This document shows, one piece after another, positions 1 through 5,449 of a stretch of DNA of 64,000 nucleotides. Source of the stretch: Phycisphaerae bacterium (GTDB lineage: Bacteria; Planctomycetota; Phycisphaerae; UBA1845); NCBI GenBank assembly GCA_029260035.1, contig JAJDEA010000069.1, forward strand, positions 1-64,000, given 5' to 3'. Each line of letters starts with the position of its first letter. Positions within the stretch are counted from its first letter, which is position 1. The notes below the pieces were generated by a model. That model saw only the letters and a program-made list of their open reading frames with translations, was not told the DNA's origin and did not search any database. A program made the position numbers and the translations under genes.

Positions 1-29
1 AAACCGGAGAGGGGGGGATTCGAACCCCC
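1..29. repeat. Left attachment core (attL), 29-bp direct repeat
   Basis: These 29 bases are identical to 5295-5323 and correspond to the T-arm and 3' acceptor strand of the tRNA-Ser. Identity ends at base 30 (C here, G at 5324). No complete tRNA is present at this end, so this is the displaced copy created by integration. It may extend further to the left outside the window. Confidence 0.85.
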
Positions 30-227
30 CGGAAAACGCGTGTCGCGGGGTCGTCAGCGGGGTATGGCGCACAAATAGGCGCACAAGACTTACAGCCGTC
101 CGGTTGTAAGAGGCTTCAAGAATTACTTCAAGCGTGGAACGGATTGACTGAATCGCAGCGTGATTCGGTTCTGGATGTTGTGCGCGCATTTTCCGCGAGC
201 GCGGAGAAAAGAGAGTTACATGGATAG
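30..227 (+). other. Detached C-terminal coding segment of the integrase
   Basis: A stop-free frame runs from the end of the attL core to a TAG at 225-227, encoding 65 residues. Its phase is exactly that of the integrase gene at 4055-5335 when the two 29-bp cores are superimposed. In an excised circle the recombinase would therefore read through the core into this segment and end about 488 residues long. The segment contains a GAQIGAQ motif that also occurs in the integrase at residues 363-369, then a predicted helical stretch W-N-G-L-T-E-S-Q-R-D-S-V-L-D-V-V-R-A-F. That stretch resembles the short helical tails I recall from other planctomycete tyrosine recombinases. It has no start codon or ribosome-binding site of its own in the integrated state. 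The alternative is a relic of an older related integrase. Confidence 0.7.
64..88 (+). repeat. 25-bp direct repeat, left copy
   Basis: Identical to 5136-5160. Both copies encode GAQIGAQ in the reading frame of the integrase (here the detached tail, there residues 363-369 of the integrase). In the circular form the two copies would flank the att core, 134 bp and 34 bp away from it. This suggests that the core-containing stretch was inserted or duplicated within an ancestral integrase gene. Confidence 0.8.
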
Positions 228-515
228 CGGAAAACGAAGGCTCGAGCTCGTTGGAGAGCCGTTTGGCAGCGTCGGAAATTCAGCAGGTTCTTTCGAGGTA
301 TGCGGTGGACGTTGGATAGGTGGCGGAAAGCAGACGGATCTGTGCGCTGTGATCGTGCAGAGGCGATTCAAGGGCCCGTGCGGCAAGGAGACTATGTTCA
401 AGATGGCAATCGATGGACCTGCGGTTGTTGCCGTGCGCAGAGGATTGGAAGTGTGGTTGGAGGAGAACGACCAAGGTCTGAGGGGGTTTTCTTAAAGAGA
501 AAGGGCGCTGACTGA
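228..515 (+). other. Uncertain small ORF region inside the element
   Basis: Two overlapping frames are open here: 300-515 (71 codons from ATG, with a cysteine group WTCGCC) and 160-495 (111 codons). A third frame before 300 reads LESRLAASEIQQVLSRYAVD and then stops, and its last codons overlap the start of the 300-515 frame. This could be one small regulatory gene broken by a frameshift. No clear ribosome-binding site is visible for any of them and I do not recognise a family. Confidence 0.3.
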
Positions 516-537
516 AGGCCTGCGGCTCGGGACCCGA

Positions 538-713
538 TCGGTCGTCGCTCAACCTGTTCGAGCGAAGCGAGTGGGCGACGACCGAATGGGTGAGACGAAG
601 GCCGGGCCTGCGGACGGGCTCCCGTGAGGTCTGAGCGATTTTGTGTTTGGGATAATAAATGGCCCGCCTACCGCTGGAACGGTGACGGGCCGAATCTTGC
701 CGTCGTGCGACGG
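538..713. promoter_or_regulatory. Hairpin cluster, candidate replication origin
   Basis: Four inverted repeats sit just upstream of the replication gene: arms 538-548/575-585 (11 bp), 614-618/621-625, a nested stem with arms 661-666/686-691 and 670-673/680-683, and 700-705/708-713 (6 bp, 2-base spacer). An A/T-rich stretch (about 651-660) lies directly before the nested stem. Double-strand origins of rolling-circle replicons typically have such stem-loops next to the rep gene. The nick site cannot be assigned from sequence alone, and transfer origin or transcriptional control are alternatives. Confidence 0.5.
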
Positions 714-815
714 TGGCCAAAAGTTCATGGATGATACTCGCCATCATGAATAATGCAATGATGAGTAACGTGCCTGATGCCACACTCCGCGCATGGCGTG
801 CTTGGAGTGATTGGC

Positions 816-2261
816 ATGGTGGCAAAAGATGATGAGACTACGGTTCTGTTGGATAGTGTTGACAGGGTTGTAGCAGACCCTGAAGTAATTGGTGTTCGGC
901 TTTGCCGGAAAGGTTGTGATTCGTTTGCTTGTAAGGTGTGTGGTCCAGTTGCGGGTCTTCGACTCGCTGAGCGATTGACTGATCGCTATAAGGCGGCGGG
1001 TGTAGAGCGAATTGGGTTTTTCACGTTGACAATCAGTGACGCTGTGCTGCCGTTTGGTGAGAAGGAGCAATATCGGCGCATTGTTGAAGGCAGGTTGATC
1101 GGGGAGTTCATGAGAAAGGTGCGTTCGGTGTTGGGTGTGTGTGGGCCGCACTTTCGAGTGTGTGAGTTTGGCGGGAAAAAGAATCGGCTGCATTTTCATT
1201 TGCTCGTGGACGATCTGAGGCTGATTAAGCCTAGACGACTTAAGGAGCTTCAGGGATGGTGCCAGCAACATATTGGAACGATGGACTATAAATACCTCCC
1301 GGCGAAGGCTGGGATTCGATATGCCTGCAAATATGTAACAAAAGGATCGCGTGGGCAGTTGCCGGAGTTCGTGTTAAATGCGTCAGGGTTCAAGTTTTAC
1401 AGCGTTTCCCGTGGTTTTTGGATGAGCGATGCAAAGTGCCGCCCGGTTGGCGTTTCACAAGTGGCTGGGCGATTGATAGAACGGTACAACACTGCAGAAG
1501 TGGTGCGAGTGGGAATGTTTGCCTTGTCAGTCAGTTCGGAGGTAATGCCCTTCCGTCCTGAAGAACAGTATAGGCAAATTGTCAAGCGCGGCCTGGTTCG
1601 CAAGTTCATAGAAAAAGTGCGTTTGGTCTTGGGTGAAGATGGTGCCTATTTTCGAATGTGTGAGTTTTGTGCGCAAACGAATCGACTCCATTTTCATTTG
1701 TTAGTGGACAATCTTGGACGAGTCACTGACAGCCAACTTTTGAGGATTCGAGATTGGTGTCATAAAAATGTCGGCGGCATGGAGTATAAGTGGCGACCTG
1801 CGGATGTAGGTGTGCGGTATGTGAGTAGATATTTATTAGAAGGATCAAGCGGCCGTTTGTCGGAATTGATGAAGGGGTGTTCTAACTTCAAGTATTACAG
1901 TGCATCTCGCGGGTTTTGGATTAACGCTTCTAAGCCAGCAGTGAAGCGGGAGCAAAGGGAACTGAGTATTCGTCTGTCGCGGTGTGGTAACGGTGTCGTA
2001 GGTTTGGTAGAGACGATAGGTGAAGATGGCACGGTGGCTCGATCGTTTGGTTTCGCCTTGCCGGTTCCGTTCGAACGCGTAGTAGCGAAGTTGAATGAAG
2101 TCTCAAAAAACGACGTGCTGGCAAGAGGCTCTACATGGCCTGTAGGTGTCTTGCGCTGGGTAGAGGTGACACCCGAATGTTTGCGGGCGTTGCTAATGGA
2201 TGCGGTCATCGGGGCGCAGGACGGTCGAGCCGCGGAGCGGCTCGCCGGCCGCAGCCCTTAG
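816..2261 (+). CDS. Replication initiator with two tandem HUH domains
   Basis: A 481-residue protein made of two homologous halves. A possible zinc-binding group (Cys30, 34, 39, 42) comes first. Domain 1 (about 49-203) has the metal-binding HFH at 126-128 and a candidate catalytic motif Y169-A-C-K172-Y173. Domain 2 (about 215-369) repeats the whole fold with HFH at 292-294 and Y335-V-S-R338-Y339, so the second copy has Arg in place of Lys. Each half ends in a matching F-K-(F/Y)-Y-S-x-S-R-G-F-W block. The motifs resemble single-domain rolling-circle initiators of the Microviridae VP4 type; nicking and joining of one DNA strand is inferred from that. About 110 C-terminal residues are unassigned. 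I chose ATG 816 because GGAG lies 8 nt upstream; the frame also has an ATG at 777. The hairpin cluster upstream is the likely substrate. Confidence 0.8.
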   Translation: MVAKDDETTVLLDSVDRVVADPEVIGVRLCRKGCDSFACKVCGPVAGLRLAERLTDRYKAAGVERIGFFTLTISDAVLPFGEKEQYRRIVEGRLIGEFMRKVRSVLGVCGPHFRVCEFGGKKNRLHFHLLVDDLRLIKPRRLKELQGWCQQHIGTMDYKYLPAKAGIRYACKYVTKGSRGQLPEFVLNASGFKFYSVSRGFWMSDAKCRPVGVSQVAGRLIERYNTAEVVRVGMFALSVSSEVMPFRPEEQYRQIVKRGLVRKFIEKVRLVLGEDGAYFRMCEFCAQTNRLHFHLLVDNLGRVTDSQLLRIRDWCHKNVGGMEYKWRPADVGVRYVSRYLLEGSSGRLSELMKGCSNFKYYSASRGFWINASKPAVKREQRELSIRLSRCGNGVVGLVETIGEDGTVARSFGFALPVPFERVVAKLNEVSKNDVLARGSTWPVGVLRWVEVTPECLRALLMDAVIGAQDGRAAERLAGRSP

Positions 2262-2294
2262 ACTTGTACTAATAGTATGTTCTGTGGAACAATG

Positions 2295-3089
2295 TCATGG
2301 GGGCAGTAGTTTAGTGAAGATTTCTACACCTTTTTCTATTAACAGCGGTCCTTCTTTCGCGAGTGTTATGAATGAAGCTGCAGTCTTGAGGAACTCGACT
2401 ATCTTCTTGCCAATGGGCTTGACTGCTATCGCCTCGGATTCCGGTGTCATTATCATTGCGCCGACAGTCGCGTTTATTGCCTTATGAATTGGAACGATTC
2501 CGGCGAACTCGTATTCATTAATCGTTTCGAGTATGAAAAACAGATGTTGGAGGATATACAGAGACAACTTGGATTCGATTGTCGTGTCGGCTTGGAGTTC
2601 ATCAATGATCTCGGAGATTTGTTTCCTTAGTCCCGCAAGGACATCGGGGTCTAATTCGGGTTCGTAGGTCGATCGATTAAGTTCACGACTAACGAATCCA
2701 AGGGATGCAATACAAGCCTCCGTAATTTTCGAATTAAAATCTGTGATGTTTTGCGCGGAATTCATAAAGGGGGCGGCGGCGGCGAAGGAATTGCGCCAAG
2801 AATCGATATATTGTTCGCGGTCCAGTTTATGTTCTTCTGATGTAATGGTCTGATTTATTGTGTTGATTTGAGCTTCGATGTGGTCTGGCATTTGTAGAAC
2901 CAATGCCATTCGTTTTAAGAGGACGGGAAGTTTCGAATGGTTTAGCGGATCTGGAATACATAAAACGGGCGCCCAAGCAGATAAACCTACGGAACCCTTT
3001 GGTCGTAACTTGGCGCGTTTCAATATTCTGAAGAGCCTTCCGGCGGGGTTGCGATCGTGCGGATCAGCCTTATCTGAGTGATCGAGCAT
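2295..3089 (-). CDS. Hypothetical cargo protein of the element
   Basis: A 264-residue protein on the strand opposite to all other genes of the element. It has a basic N-terminus, a central amphipathic region with the segment KQISEIIDELQAD, then hydrophobic helices (about 195-225, around IVPIHKAINATVGAMIM) and a C-terminal segment FLKTAASFITLAKEGPLLIEKGVEIF. I recognise no domain. It is transcribed away from the RHH gene, with about 140 bp of shared upstream DNA. Opposite orientation within a compact replicon is typical of accessory cargo such as defence, exclusion or toxin functions, but nothing in the sequence fixes this. The gene is AT-richer than the chromosomal genes, consistent with transfer. 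Confidence 0.65.
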   Translation of the reverse strand: MLDHSDKADPHDRNPAGRLFRILKRAKLRPKGSVGLSAWAPVLCIPDPLNHSKLPVLLKRMALVLQMPDHIEAQINTINQTITSEEHKLDREQYIDSWRNSFAAAAPFMNSAQNITDFNSKITEACIASLGFVSRELNRSTYEPELDPDVLAGLRKQISEIIDELQADTTIESKLSLYILQHLFFILETINEYEFAGIVPIHKAINATVGAMIMTPESEAIAVKPIGKKIVEFLKTAASFITLAKEGPLLIEKGVEIFTKLLPP

Positions 3090-3187
3090 AGGGTTTCCTT
3101 GCGGTTGCTAGGGATCCGAAATTCGTAAATCGACTTGTTGCATGATAAGAAGTCTTTGTAGGCAGGGCAATTTGTTGTGAATTATTG

Positions 3188-3224
3188 CATAACATTTGAT
3201 TTCTTGTTATGAATATGTTATGAT
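3188..3224 (+). promoter_or_regulatory. Promoter and operator-like repeats of the RHH gene
   Basis: TTGATT at 3196-3201, a 17-bp spacer, and TATGAT at 3219-3224 with TG at 3216-3217 make a good sigma-70-type promoter with an extended -10. GTTATG occurs at 3206-3211 and 3217-3222, exactly 11 bp apart, and its inverse CATAAC at 3188-3193. The repeats overlap the promoter, as expected for autorepression by a ribbon-helix-helix protein. The ATG at 3231 lies 7 bases after the -10, so the message is probably leaderless. Confidence 0.6.
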
Positions 3225-3230
3225 ATACTT

Positions 3231-3578
3231 ATGAGAAAAGAACGTACGACGATTTCGATCGATTCAGAGATACTCGGGCGTATTGACGCATTATGTAGTG
3301 TTCGTGGCGAATCACGGTCTTCGATGATCGAACGGGTTATGATTTATGCACTTGAGGATTACGAAGAACATTTGAAAGCGTTGGAGAATCCTCTGACGCA
3401 GCGAATTGTGCGTGCCGTGACTGGTTCGCCAAAGGTTCTCGGTGTGTTGGTGAAAGCTCTTGGTCAATCTATGAGTGCGGAGGAAATAGCCGCACTTCGC
3501 GATAGAAATCTCACGGATGCTGACGTTGCGGAGCAGCGGCGTAAGGAAAAGAAGGCTGCGAAACGAAAGAAGAGATGA
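3231..3578 (+). CDS. Ribbon-helix-helix DNA-binding protein
   Basis: A 115-residue protein. Residues 1-45 fit the CopG/Arc-type ribbon-helix-helix fold: a beta strand RTTISIDSEIL, helix A, a turn at RGESRS, and helix B. The C-terminal part is charged and ends in a very basic tail (RRKEKKAAKRKKR). Such proteins control copy number or partner gene expression in plasmids and integrative elements by binding repeated short sites as dimers. The GTTATG repeats in its own promoter are candidate sites. There is no Shine-Dalgarno sequence and the predicted transcription start is at or next to the ATG. The 279 bp that follow, up to the HTH gene, show no convincing gene. Confidence 0.8.
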   Translation: MRKERTTISIDSEILGRIDALCSVRGESRSSMIERVMIYALEDYEEHLKALENPLTQRIVRAVTGSPKVLGVLVKALGQSMSAEEIAALRDRNLTDADVAEQRRKEKKAAKRKKR

Positions 3579-3857
3579 ATTAATTGAGGCGAGGGCGGAA
3601 AACCGTATGTATCAGACCTTCTTGAAGCGTTCGATGCCACGGCCGCTTCAACGGGCAACTTTTGGGATACTAGCCACAACGGTGGGCCGCTCCGTTTCAG
3701 TTTGATGCGTGAATCGAAATCGAGATGGGGAGTCGTGCGAGCGGTTCCTGGCTTTAGGCGCTAACGCGTGGTGGTGCGGGTGTCTTTGGTAGTACTCGTC
3801 TCGGTTTTGATTCATTGCAAACGTTCGGTAACAGGAAAGAGCGATAGGATTCGGGAA

Positions 3858-4055
3858 ATGATGCAGTTATCAAACGGGGATCGATTGCTGAAGCTAGATG
3901 AAGTTGGTGAGATATTGGCCGTTAGCCGGCGAACTGTTCATCGTTTGATCGCTTCGGGGGAATTACCTCATCCTGTCAAGGTGGGGAGCGGTAGTCGGAT
4001 GCCGATGCTGGACGTTTTGAAATTCACTGAGCGGCTTAAACGTGAGCGCACATAA
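3858..4055 (+). CDS. AlpA-like HTH protein, candidate excisionase
   Basis: A 65-residue helix-turn-helix protein of the MerR/AlpA excisionase-like class: LLKLDEVGEILAVSRRTVHRLIASGELPHP is the winged-HTH core (given here as about residues 8-37), followed by the wing VKVGSGSRMP. Such small proteins direct the recombinase toward excision or regulate its gene. The start is ATG 3858 with AGGA 8 nt upstream; the open frame extends further upstream without support. Its stop overlaps the integrase start (TAATG at 4053-4057), implying translational coupling and co-regulation with the recombinase. Confidence 0.8.
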   Translation: MMQLSNGDRLLKLDEVGEILAVSRRTVHRLIASGELPHPVKVGSGSRMPMLDVLKFTERLKRERT

Positions 4056-5335
4056 TGTATTCGGGCGTGTGGAGGCCAACGCGAAAGAACAGGGGCAGAT
4101 CGAAGCTCTATAGGGGTAAGTACCGATCGGATTCATCAGAACGCTTTAAGTATGTTTCACTTCGAACGACTGACAAACGGATAGCACGAAAAAAATTAGA
4201 TGCAATCGTATTGAGGGTAGAACGTGAACGTGCAGGATTGTTACCTCCGGACGAATTGCTTCAGGGTGCGCAGTGCACGGTTTTGGAGCACTTGAATAAG
4301 TTTGTTTTGGATTTGCAGGCTCGCCGGTGCGATGACGAATACATTGGGAAAATTAAACAGCGTGTGCGGCGTTTAGCGAAGGAATGCCATTGGTCTCGCG
4401 TGAATGATATTTCTGCTGCCTCGTTTGAGGATTGGCGGAGTAAGCAATCTACGATGGCGCCTCGGACGCAGAATCATTATCTTCAGGCTGTTCGTTGTAT
4501 GTGGGCCTGGCTGGTGTCGCATGGAAAAGCAGCGGGAAAGCCACTATCTAAGGTAAAGCTCGTGAAGACTCGTGGGCTTGAAACGGTAGTTCGGCGGGCT
4601 TTGAGTTTTGGTGAGATGAAGCGGCTTATCGAGGTGGCGGGTGTGCGAAAAGTGGTTTATCTTACGGCGGTGCATACTGGACTTCGACGTGGCGAGCTGA
4701 CTCAACTGTGTTGGAAGGATGTCCGTCTTGACGCTACCCCCCCTTTCCTTCAAGTTCGTGCCTCAACTACGAAAAACGGACAGAAAGCGGATCTTCCCTT
4801 AGTTTCGGAAGTGACTGAGTTATTGACCGATCTCGCACGCAATGGTTGCGAGCAAGGTACTCGCGTATTCCGTGGGATCATGCCGCTTCCGAAGACTGTA
4901 CGAAGTGATTTCGACAAGGCGGGTATTGAGCGTCAGGACAGTAGGGGTTGGCTTGTAGATTTCCACGCCTTGCGGCACACTTTCATCACAAATATGGGGA
5001 TAGCGGGGGTTGATGGCGGACTCCGGCGACAGGCGGCCCGGCATAGTGATCAGCGGTTAACGGATCGAGTATACACGGATGTGTCACAGTTACCTATGGT
5101 GAGAGCGTTCTCTGCTCTTCCGTCATATACTGATGATGGCGCACAAATAGGCGCACAAGAATTGGTCCCGAGTAGGCACAAATTGACGCGTTCTGACCCT
5201 ACTTCAGGTCATGAGAGGAGTCGTAAGTGCTTGTCAAATAAGGCGCAACGGCACACGGTGGCATCAGTTGGCACAAATGGGCATAACGCCCCAAAAACCG
5301 GAGAGGGGGGGATTCGAACCCCCGGTACAGTTTAA
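4055..5335 (+). CDS. int: Tyrosine recombinase (integrase) of the element
   Basis: A 426-residue phage-type integrase. The N-terminal region contains an arm-binding part (about 1-60) and a SAM-like core-binding domain (about 75-160). The catalytic domain has Arg211 in HTGLRRGEL, a likely Lys240, His304-x-x-Arg307 in HALRHTF, His330 and the nucleophile Tyr340 in RVYTD, so it is intact. It integrates the element at the tRNA-Ser by strand exchange in the 29-bp core. The last 13 residues are encoded by the core and tRNA (antisense to the tRNA), and the TAA at 5333-5335 belongs to the tRNA sequence. In the circular form the same frame continues into 30-227, so the integrated gene makes a protein with an altered C-terminus. 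The start is coupled to the preceding gene by TAATG. Confidence 0.93.
   Translation: MYSGVWRPTRKNRGRSKLYRGKYRSDSSERFKYVSLRTTDKRIARKKLDAIVLRVERERAGLLPPDELLQGAQCTVLEHLNKFVLDLQARRCDDEYIGKIKQRVRRLAKECHWSRVNDISAASFEDWRSKQSTMAPRTQNHYLQAVRCMWAWLVSHGKAAGKPLSKVKLVKTRGLETVVRRALSFGEMKRLIEVAGVRKVVYLTAVHTGLRRGELTQLCWKDVRLDATPPFLQVRASTTKNGQKADLPLVSEVTELLTDLARNGCEQGTRVFRGIMPLPKTVRSDFDKAGIERQDSRGWLVDFHALRHTFITNMGIAGVDGGLRRQAARHSDQRLTDRVYTDVSQLPMVRAFSALPSYTDDGAQIGAQELVPSRHKLTRSDPTSGHERSRKCLSNKAQRHTVASVGTNGHNAPKTGEGGIRTPGTV
5136..5160 (+). repeat. 25-bp direct repeat, right copy
   Basis: Identical to 64-88 and in the same reading phase, encoding GAQIGAQ at integrase residues 363-369. It sits 134 bp before the att core. 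Confidence 0.8.
5295..5323. repeat. Right attachment core (attR), 29-bp direct repeat
   Basis: The second copy of the 1-29 sequence. It overlaps both the 3' end of the tRNA-Ser gene (minus strand) and the last codons of the integrase, so one sequence serves as tRNA end, recombination core and coding sequence. Confidence 0.85.
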
Positions 5336-5387
5336 CCCGCACACTGGTTTTCGAAACCAGCTCCTTCAGCCGCTCGGACACCTCTCC
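5299..5387 (-). tRNA. tRNA-Ser(CGA)
   Basis: The 89-nt minus-strand gene has acceptor arms GGAGAGG/CCTCTCC, the anticodon stem CTGGT/ACCAG with loop TTCGAAA (anticodon CGA, codon UCG), a long variable arm typical of class II tRNAs, and the T-loop TTCGAAT. CCA is not encoded. The gene stays intact because the element integrated at its 3' end and restored the sequence. Confidence 0.95.
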
Positions 5388-5449
5388 ATGCTGAAAACCC
5401 GCAACATCGAACCAACGATTGGCTCTGGATTCTGGTAAGCCGTTTACGA

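Follow-up and report, generated by a model that had tools for sequence, protein, structure and literature searches.

Rolling-circle replication initiators (Reps) of the two-tyrosine HUH class occur in bacterial plasmids, inoviruses and microviruses (PMC6668415). Members of the Pfam family PF23343 (REP_ORF2-G2P) comprise inovirus G2P, chlamydiaphage ORF2, Microviridae VP4 and related plasmid Reps. Initiation and termination are handled in phiX174 protein A by a pair of tyrosines within a single active site, whereas pT181 RepC uses two subunits with one tyrosine each for these steps (PMC5714925). A duplicated HUH endonuclease within one genome is described for gamadviruses (mriyaviruses), where one copy is 'probably active'; the same paper gives motif III as YUxxYx2-3K and counts the lysine as belonging to it (PMC10962738).

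We analysed a 481-aa Rep encoded in a window of 64,000 nucleotides from a Phycisphaerae bacterium (contig JAJDEA010000069.1, positions 1 to 64,000). It resembles the PF23343 Reps in HUH motif II, in the invariant upstream glutamate and in the YxxxYxxK motif of its first module (HUH1). Unlike them, it has two modules per chain, and the second (HUH2) deviates in motif I and in both motif III lysines. HUH1 makes the protein a two-tyrosine HUH Rep, while its architecture makes it a variant within that family. As in phiX174 protein A (CisA), two tyrosines lie in one active site and are expected to alternate, but that protein has one HUH domain and belongs to a virion-producing phage. Initiators of the pT181 RepC type likewise bring two HUH copies together in their initiator complex. 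Those copies, however, are identical, unlinked subunits that each carry a single tyrosine, while the copies studied here are fused, diverged and equipped with two tyrosines each. The gamadvirus pair, in turn, resides on two separate genes of eukaryotic viruses and not on a fused chain. An earlier note on this DNA had stated that rolling-circle initiators usually have a single domain and work as dimers. This holds for one-tyrosine Reps such as pT181 RepC; here there are two tyrosines per domain, and for an initiator like phiX174 protein A one domain is enough (PMC5714925).

The rep gene (816-2261, forward strand) is one intact ORF in the ORF listing, with a plausible ribosome-binding site (GGAG) 8 nt ahead of the ATG at 816. 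From ORF, Pfam and self-alignment data and an AlphaFold model, the chain reads, in order, as a Cys cluster, HUH1, HUH2 and a C-terminal tail. The Cys cluster (C30/C34/C39/C42, 903-941) is a putative zinc knuckle, present in a single copy as in single-domain relatives, and C34, C39 and C42 are invariant in the alignment with them. HUH1 spans residues 44-208 (945-1439) and HUH2 residues 210-374 (1443-1937). The tail (residues 375-481, 1938-2258) can be aligned to the tail of the single-domain relatives (RELSIRLSRCG), which closes with a conserved CG segment. The two modules are identical at 77 of 164 residues (47%) in a gap-free alignment, which scored 421 against a maximum of 48 among 500 shuffles. 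The whole protein matched PF23343 in two stretches with 50.2 bits (cut-off 27.8). HUH2 alone reached 20.5 bits (E 6e-4), below that cut-off, and is recognisable in sequence as a PF23343 module, yet diverged.

To place the two modules among their relatives, we retrieved 37 other distinct two-tyrosine Rep ORFs. All 37 had one HUH module with the motif YxxKYxxK, and all but one came from planctomycetes; the named relatives were Phycisphaerae or other Planctomycetota, plus one Dictyobacter. In a tree of 31 sequences (the two modules and 29 single-domain Reps), HUH1 and HUH2 were sisters with a support of 100/99, which places the duplication within this Rep's own lineage. Since the Cys cluster precedes HUH1 and the tail follows HUH2, each in a single copy, only the HUH module was duplicated in tandem. 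Thus, the computation shows that the Rep with two HUH modules is derived by internal tandem duplication from a single-domain two-tyrosine Rep of the layout Cys cluster, HUH, tail. The internal duplication proposed in the earlier note is confirmed, and its alternative, that single-domain homologues would reveal an unrelated second half, does not apply because the halves are true paralogues. That the tandem copies were falsely created by assembly or annotation can be set aside as excluded by their divergence: the locus does lie at the start of a contig in a fragmented assembly, but an artefact would give near-identical copies, while these differ at 53% of residues and at more than half of third codon positions.

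We then compared the catalytic motifs. When both modules were aligned with 29 relatives, E117, H126, H128, Y169, K172, Y173 and K176 (HUH1 numbering) were invariant in all 29; as the relatives were collected by requiring HxH and the tyrosines, the invariance of those residues is partly by construction, although lysine at the two lysine positions was not demanded. T72 was conserved as threonine in 28 of 29 and T70 in 26 of 29. HUH1 has all of these residues (T70, T72, E117, H126, H128, Y169, K172, Y173, K176) and is canonical, with FTLTISD as motif I, HFH at residues 126-128 (1191-1199) and YACKYVTK at 169-176 (1320-1343) as motif III. HUH2 carries HFH at 292-294 (1689-1697), so that the HxH of motif II and its upstream glutamate are present in both modules, and it retains E283, H292, H294, Y335 and Y339. 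Its motif I (FALSVSS) and motif III (YVSRYLLE, 335-342, 1818-1841) are changed: K172 corresponds to R338, K176 to E342, T70 to A236, T72 to S238 and D75 to S241. The YxxxYxxK form of motif III is therefore satisfied by HUH1 but not by HUH2. We take the roles of the motif III lysine and of the motif I residues from what is generally known of HUH enzymes. The earlier note had correctly read HFH and Y-x-x-(K/R)-Y in each half. It had also located the altered catalytic motif of the second half in the exchange of lysine for arginine; this exchange is real but the lesser change, and the replacement of Lys176 by Glu342, together with the lost threonines and aspartate of motif I, is more important.

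AlphaFold models were obtained for HUH2 plus tail, with an alignment of relatives, and for the full-length Rep. In the former the mean pLDDT was 73, with about 80-94 across most of the HUH core. Compared with solved structures, this HUH2 model gave HUH enzymes as its top matches (Helitron transposase, Z 9.1; AAV Rep origin-binding domains, Z 7.8; SIRV1 ORF119, Z 7.6), followed by unrelated ferredoxin-like folds at Z 6-7. HUH1 in the full-length model showed the same topology and matched AAV Rep and Helitron at Z 6.6-7.0, and the order of HUH strands and helices was the same in both halves. Overall confidence in the full-length model was low (pTM 0.52), so how the domains sit against each other cannot be read from it. 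A profile-based sequence search of solved structures gave no HUH match. Both modules are thus predicted to adopt the HUH fold, and in the models neither half lacks it.

To see whether HUH2 is maintained, we estimated selection between the modules. dN/dS of HUH1 versus HUH2 was 0.27 (Nei-Gojobori, bootstrap 0.11-0.40), an approximate value because dS, at about 1.4, is near saturation. Free drift of one module would be expected to give about 0.5 or more, so both modules are constrained, and the computation shows that HUH2 is under purifying selection. At the same time HUH2 seems to have changed faster: its branch in the tree was 2.4 times longer than that of HUH1 (0.77 versus 0.32), and with 27 of 29 outgroups as reference it had the larger number of lineage-specific changes (mean 15.0 versus 8.5). 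This difference in rate is modest, with few single relative-rate tests at P<0.05.

The rep gene is carried on an element of 5,294 bp that is flanked by exact 29-bp att repeats at a tRNA-Ser gene. attL occupies positions 1-29, and attR (5295-5323) lies inside the 3' end of the tRNA-Ser gene (cga, 5298-5388, reverse strand), the integration target. No further att copy was found in the assembly. A tyrosine integrase (4055-5335, forward strand; PF00589, E 7e-13) is encoded inside. The locus therefore has what identifies a tRNA-integrated mobile element, a direct repeat of the tRNA 3' end at both borders and an integrase between them, in line with the earlier reading of a replication protein on an integrative element. 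On the forward strand, domain matches further point to a small AlpA/HTH_17 DNA-binding protein (3858-4055), probably an excisionase or regulator, and to a ribbon-helix-helix protein (RHH_1, 3231-3578), probably a regulator. A 264-aa protein on the reverse strand (2295-3089) has no assigned function and matched only phrog_15904, weakly; PADLOC gave no match for it, and a defence function was rejected. Upstream of rep, an imperfect inverted repeat with 29-nt arms (532-591) folds better than shuffled sequences (z -3.3). A comparable long hairpin does not recur upstream of the rep genes of most relatives, and because of this we dropped it as a shared origin hairpin and keep it as a candidate origin in the sense of a lead only.

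Some further features of the borders were observed. The contig starts exactly with the first base of attL, as would fit if the reads had several left flanks (from integrated and excised forms or from several strains); the right att copy, however, is unbroken. The integrase gene overlaps the att repeat, and in the joined circle its frame runs through att into the ORF at 3-227. Integration would thus swap a 66-residue C-terminal tail for GTV-stop, and such a swap could switch the activity of the integrase between the integrated and the circular state. In addition, a 28-bp direct repeat (96%) encoding GAQIGAQ is found at 64-91 and 5136-5163 and flanks att in the circular form. The pair may represent integrase arm-binding sites or the trace of an earlier tail duplication.

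Four single-HUH Reps (L037, L038, L039 and L040) were found in planctomycete elements of 4.9-6.6 kb with integrases, whose border repeats derive from tRNA-Met, tRNA-Pro (two) and tRNA-Leu. These elements are like the 5,294-bp element in the Cys cluster, HUH and tail of their Reps, in the integrase and in the tRNA-derived direct repeats, and L040 also has an RHH protein. They differ in their tRNA targets and cargo, and their Reps have one HUH module and only about 20-30% identity to the 481-aa Rep. The single-domain Rep element is recurrent in Planctomycetota, and the 5,294-bp element is a variant of that type. As for cargo, L037 (5429-6592) encodes a piece of a DrmD-like SNF2 helicase (E 4e-96) and L038 (9573-12245) an 890-aa, Ppl-like SMC/AAA protein; both resemble defence genes. 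In Phycisphaerales UBA7800, a CRISPR-like array with repeats spaced 65-66 bp lies beside a single-domain Rep (L053, 7624-10410).

Of 298 genomes of the class, 20 had a PF23343 protein, as did 16 of the 392 in the phylum sample; among the genomes listed in the source organism's own family, no other one had such a protein. The earlier note had regarded the presence of this Rep on an integrative element in this lineage as unusual. Given that single-domain Reps on tRNA-bordered elements recur across Planctomycetota, it is the doubling that is unusual. A doubled homologue was not found in phage, plasmid, viral-contig and genome-contig collections or in about 900-1,000 distinct genomes of the planctomycete phylum, by scans that reach moderate divergence only, so that absence is no proof. 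Nor did we find a published fused two-HUH Rep, the nearest being the mriyavirus (gamadvirus) HUH pair on separate genes; as our coverage of the literature is partial, priority is not certain. The 481-aa Rep thus looks like a rare natural fused HUH pair.

How might such a pair work? We consider the 481-aa protein to be the probable replication initiator of a small, plasmid-like element integrated at tRNA-Ser. The integrase would excise the element, after which HUH1 would nick the origin for rolling-circle replication and carry out both strand transfers with its own tyrosines, Y169 and Y173. HUH2, covalently joined and catalytically weakened, would assist by binding the origin or by keeping hold of the displaced strand, and the fused modules would in effect form a built-in pseudo-dimer. 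Because there are two tyrosines per domain in this Rep family, the chemistry does not demand a second domain, which favours a division of labour. We therefore lean, with somewhat better than even confidence, towards HUH1 as the only nuclease, with the weakened HUH2 attached to it for binding the origin or holding the strand.

A serious competitor, though clearly the less probable one, is that both modules are active in one reaction cycle: one would cut at initiation and stay covalently linked while the other cuts at termination, or each would cut its own site (for example at leading- and lagging-strand origins). HUH2 has Glu283, both histidines, both tyrosines and the fold, and both halves are under purifying selection. 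Its metal ligands and tyrosines would be superfluous in a pure binding module, so HUH2 may still cut; the exchange of K172 for R338 is mild, and the effect of Glu342 could be compensated elsewhere. However, HUH2 has lost the two lysines that are invariant in 29 of 29 relatives as well as the motif I threonines, and relatives on comparable elements manage with a single domain. Nor would a fused pair that covers cleavage and termination in one chain, a possibility raised in the earlier note, fill an obvious gap, as the two tyrosines of a single domain already serve both (PMC5714925). A more specific version, which we consider rather unlikely, is a natural single-chain heterodimer Rep whose two active modules differ in active-site chemistry or sequence specificity and make different cuts (for example initiation versus termination, or the two strands). 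If true, this would mark a transition to an asymmetric initiator from Reps that are homodimeric or have a single domain.

We consider it improbable that HUH2 has no present role and is decaying as a neutral leftover of the tandem duplication. Its losses in catalytic motifs and longer branch would fit decay, as would the failure to find a second doubled homologue. But dN/dS is low, neither a gap nor a frameshift occurs across 165 codons at a synonymous divergence above 1, the HUH, E and Y residues are kept, and the C-terminal tail continues behind HUH2.

We rejected as highly improbable that the protein is the VP4 replication protein of a Microviridae provirus, an appearance that the earlier note had pointed out. 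Microvirus Reps gave weak tblastn matches (24-35% identity, many of them with E values of about 1e-3 to 1), microvirus replication initiators were among the named matches in a structure comparison with viral proteins, and PF23343 is common to both. Yet neither a capsid nor a pilot or scaffold gene lies on the att-bounded 5.3-kb element: every large ORF within 1-5335 is accounted for, the others being the integrase, AlpA, RHH and one protein of unassigned function, and none is capsid-sized or capsid-matching. Moreover, this Rep class is common to bacterial plasmids and inoviruses too (PMC6668415).

Most work on the number of active sites that rolling-circle initiators need, and on the reasons for dimer formation in some Reps, has used mutants of identical subunits. 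HUH domains serve as covalent DNA tags, and a tandem HUH with two non-identical sites could be useful as such a tag. The altered HUH2 offers a test of the role of the motif III lysine. With HUH2 as the weakened partner of HUH1, binding and catalysis would be separated by nature within one chain, in a fused pair whose second copy has changed at motifs I and III but kept its fold and tyrosines.
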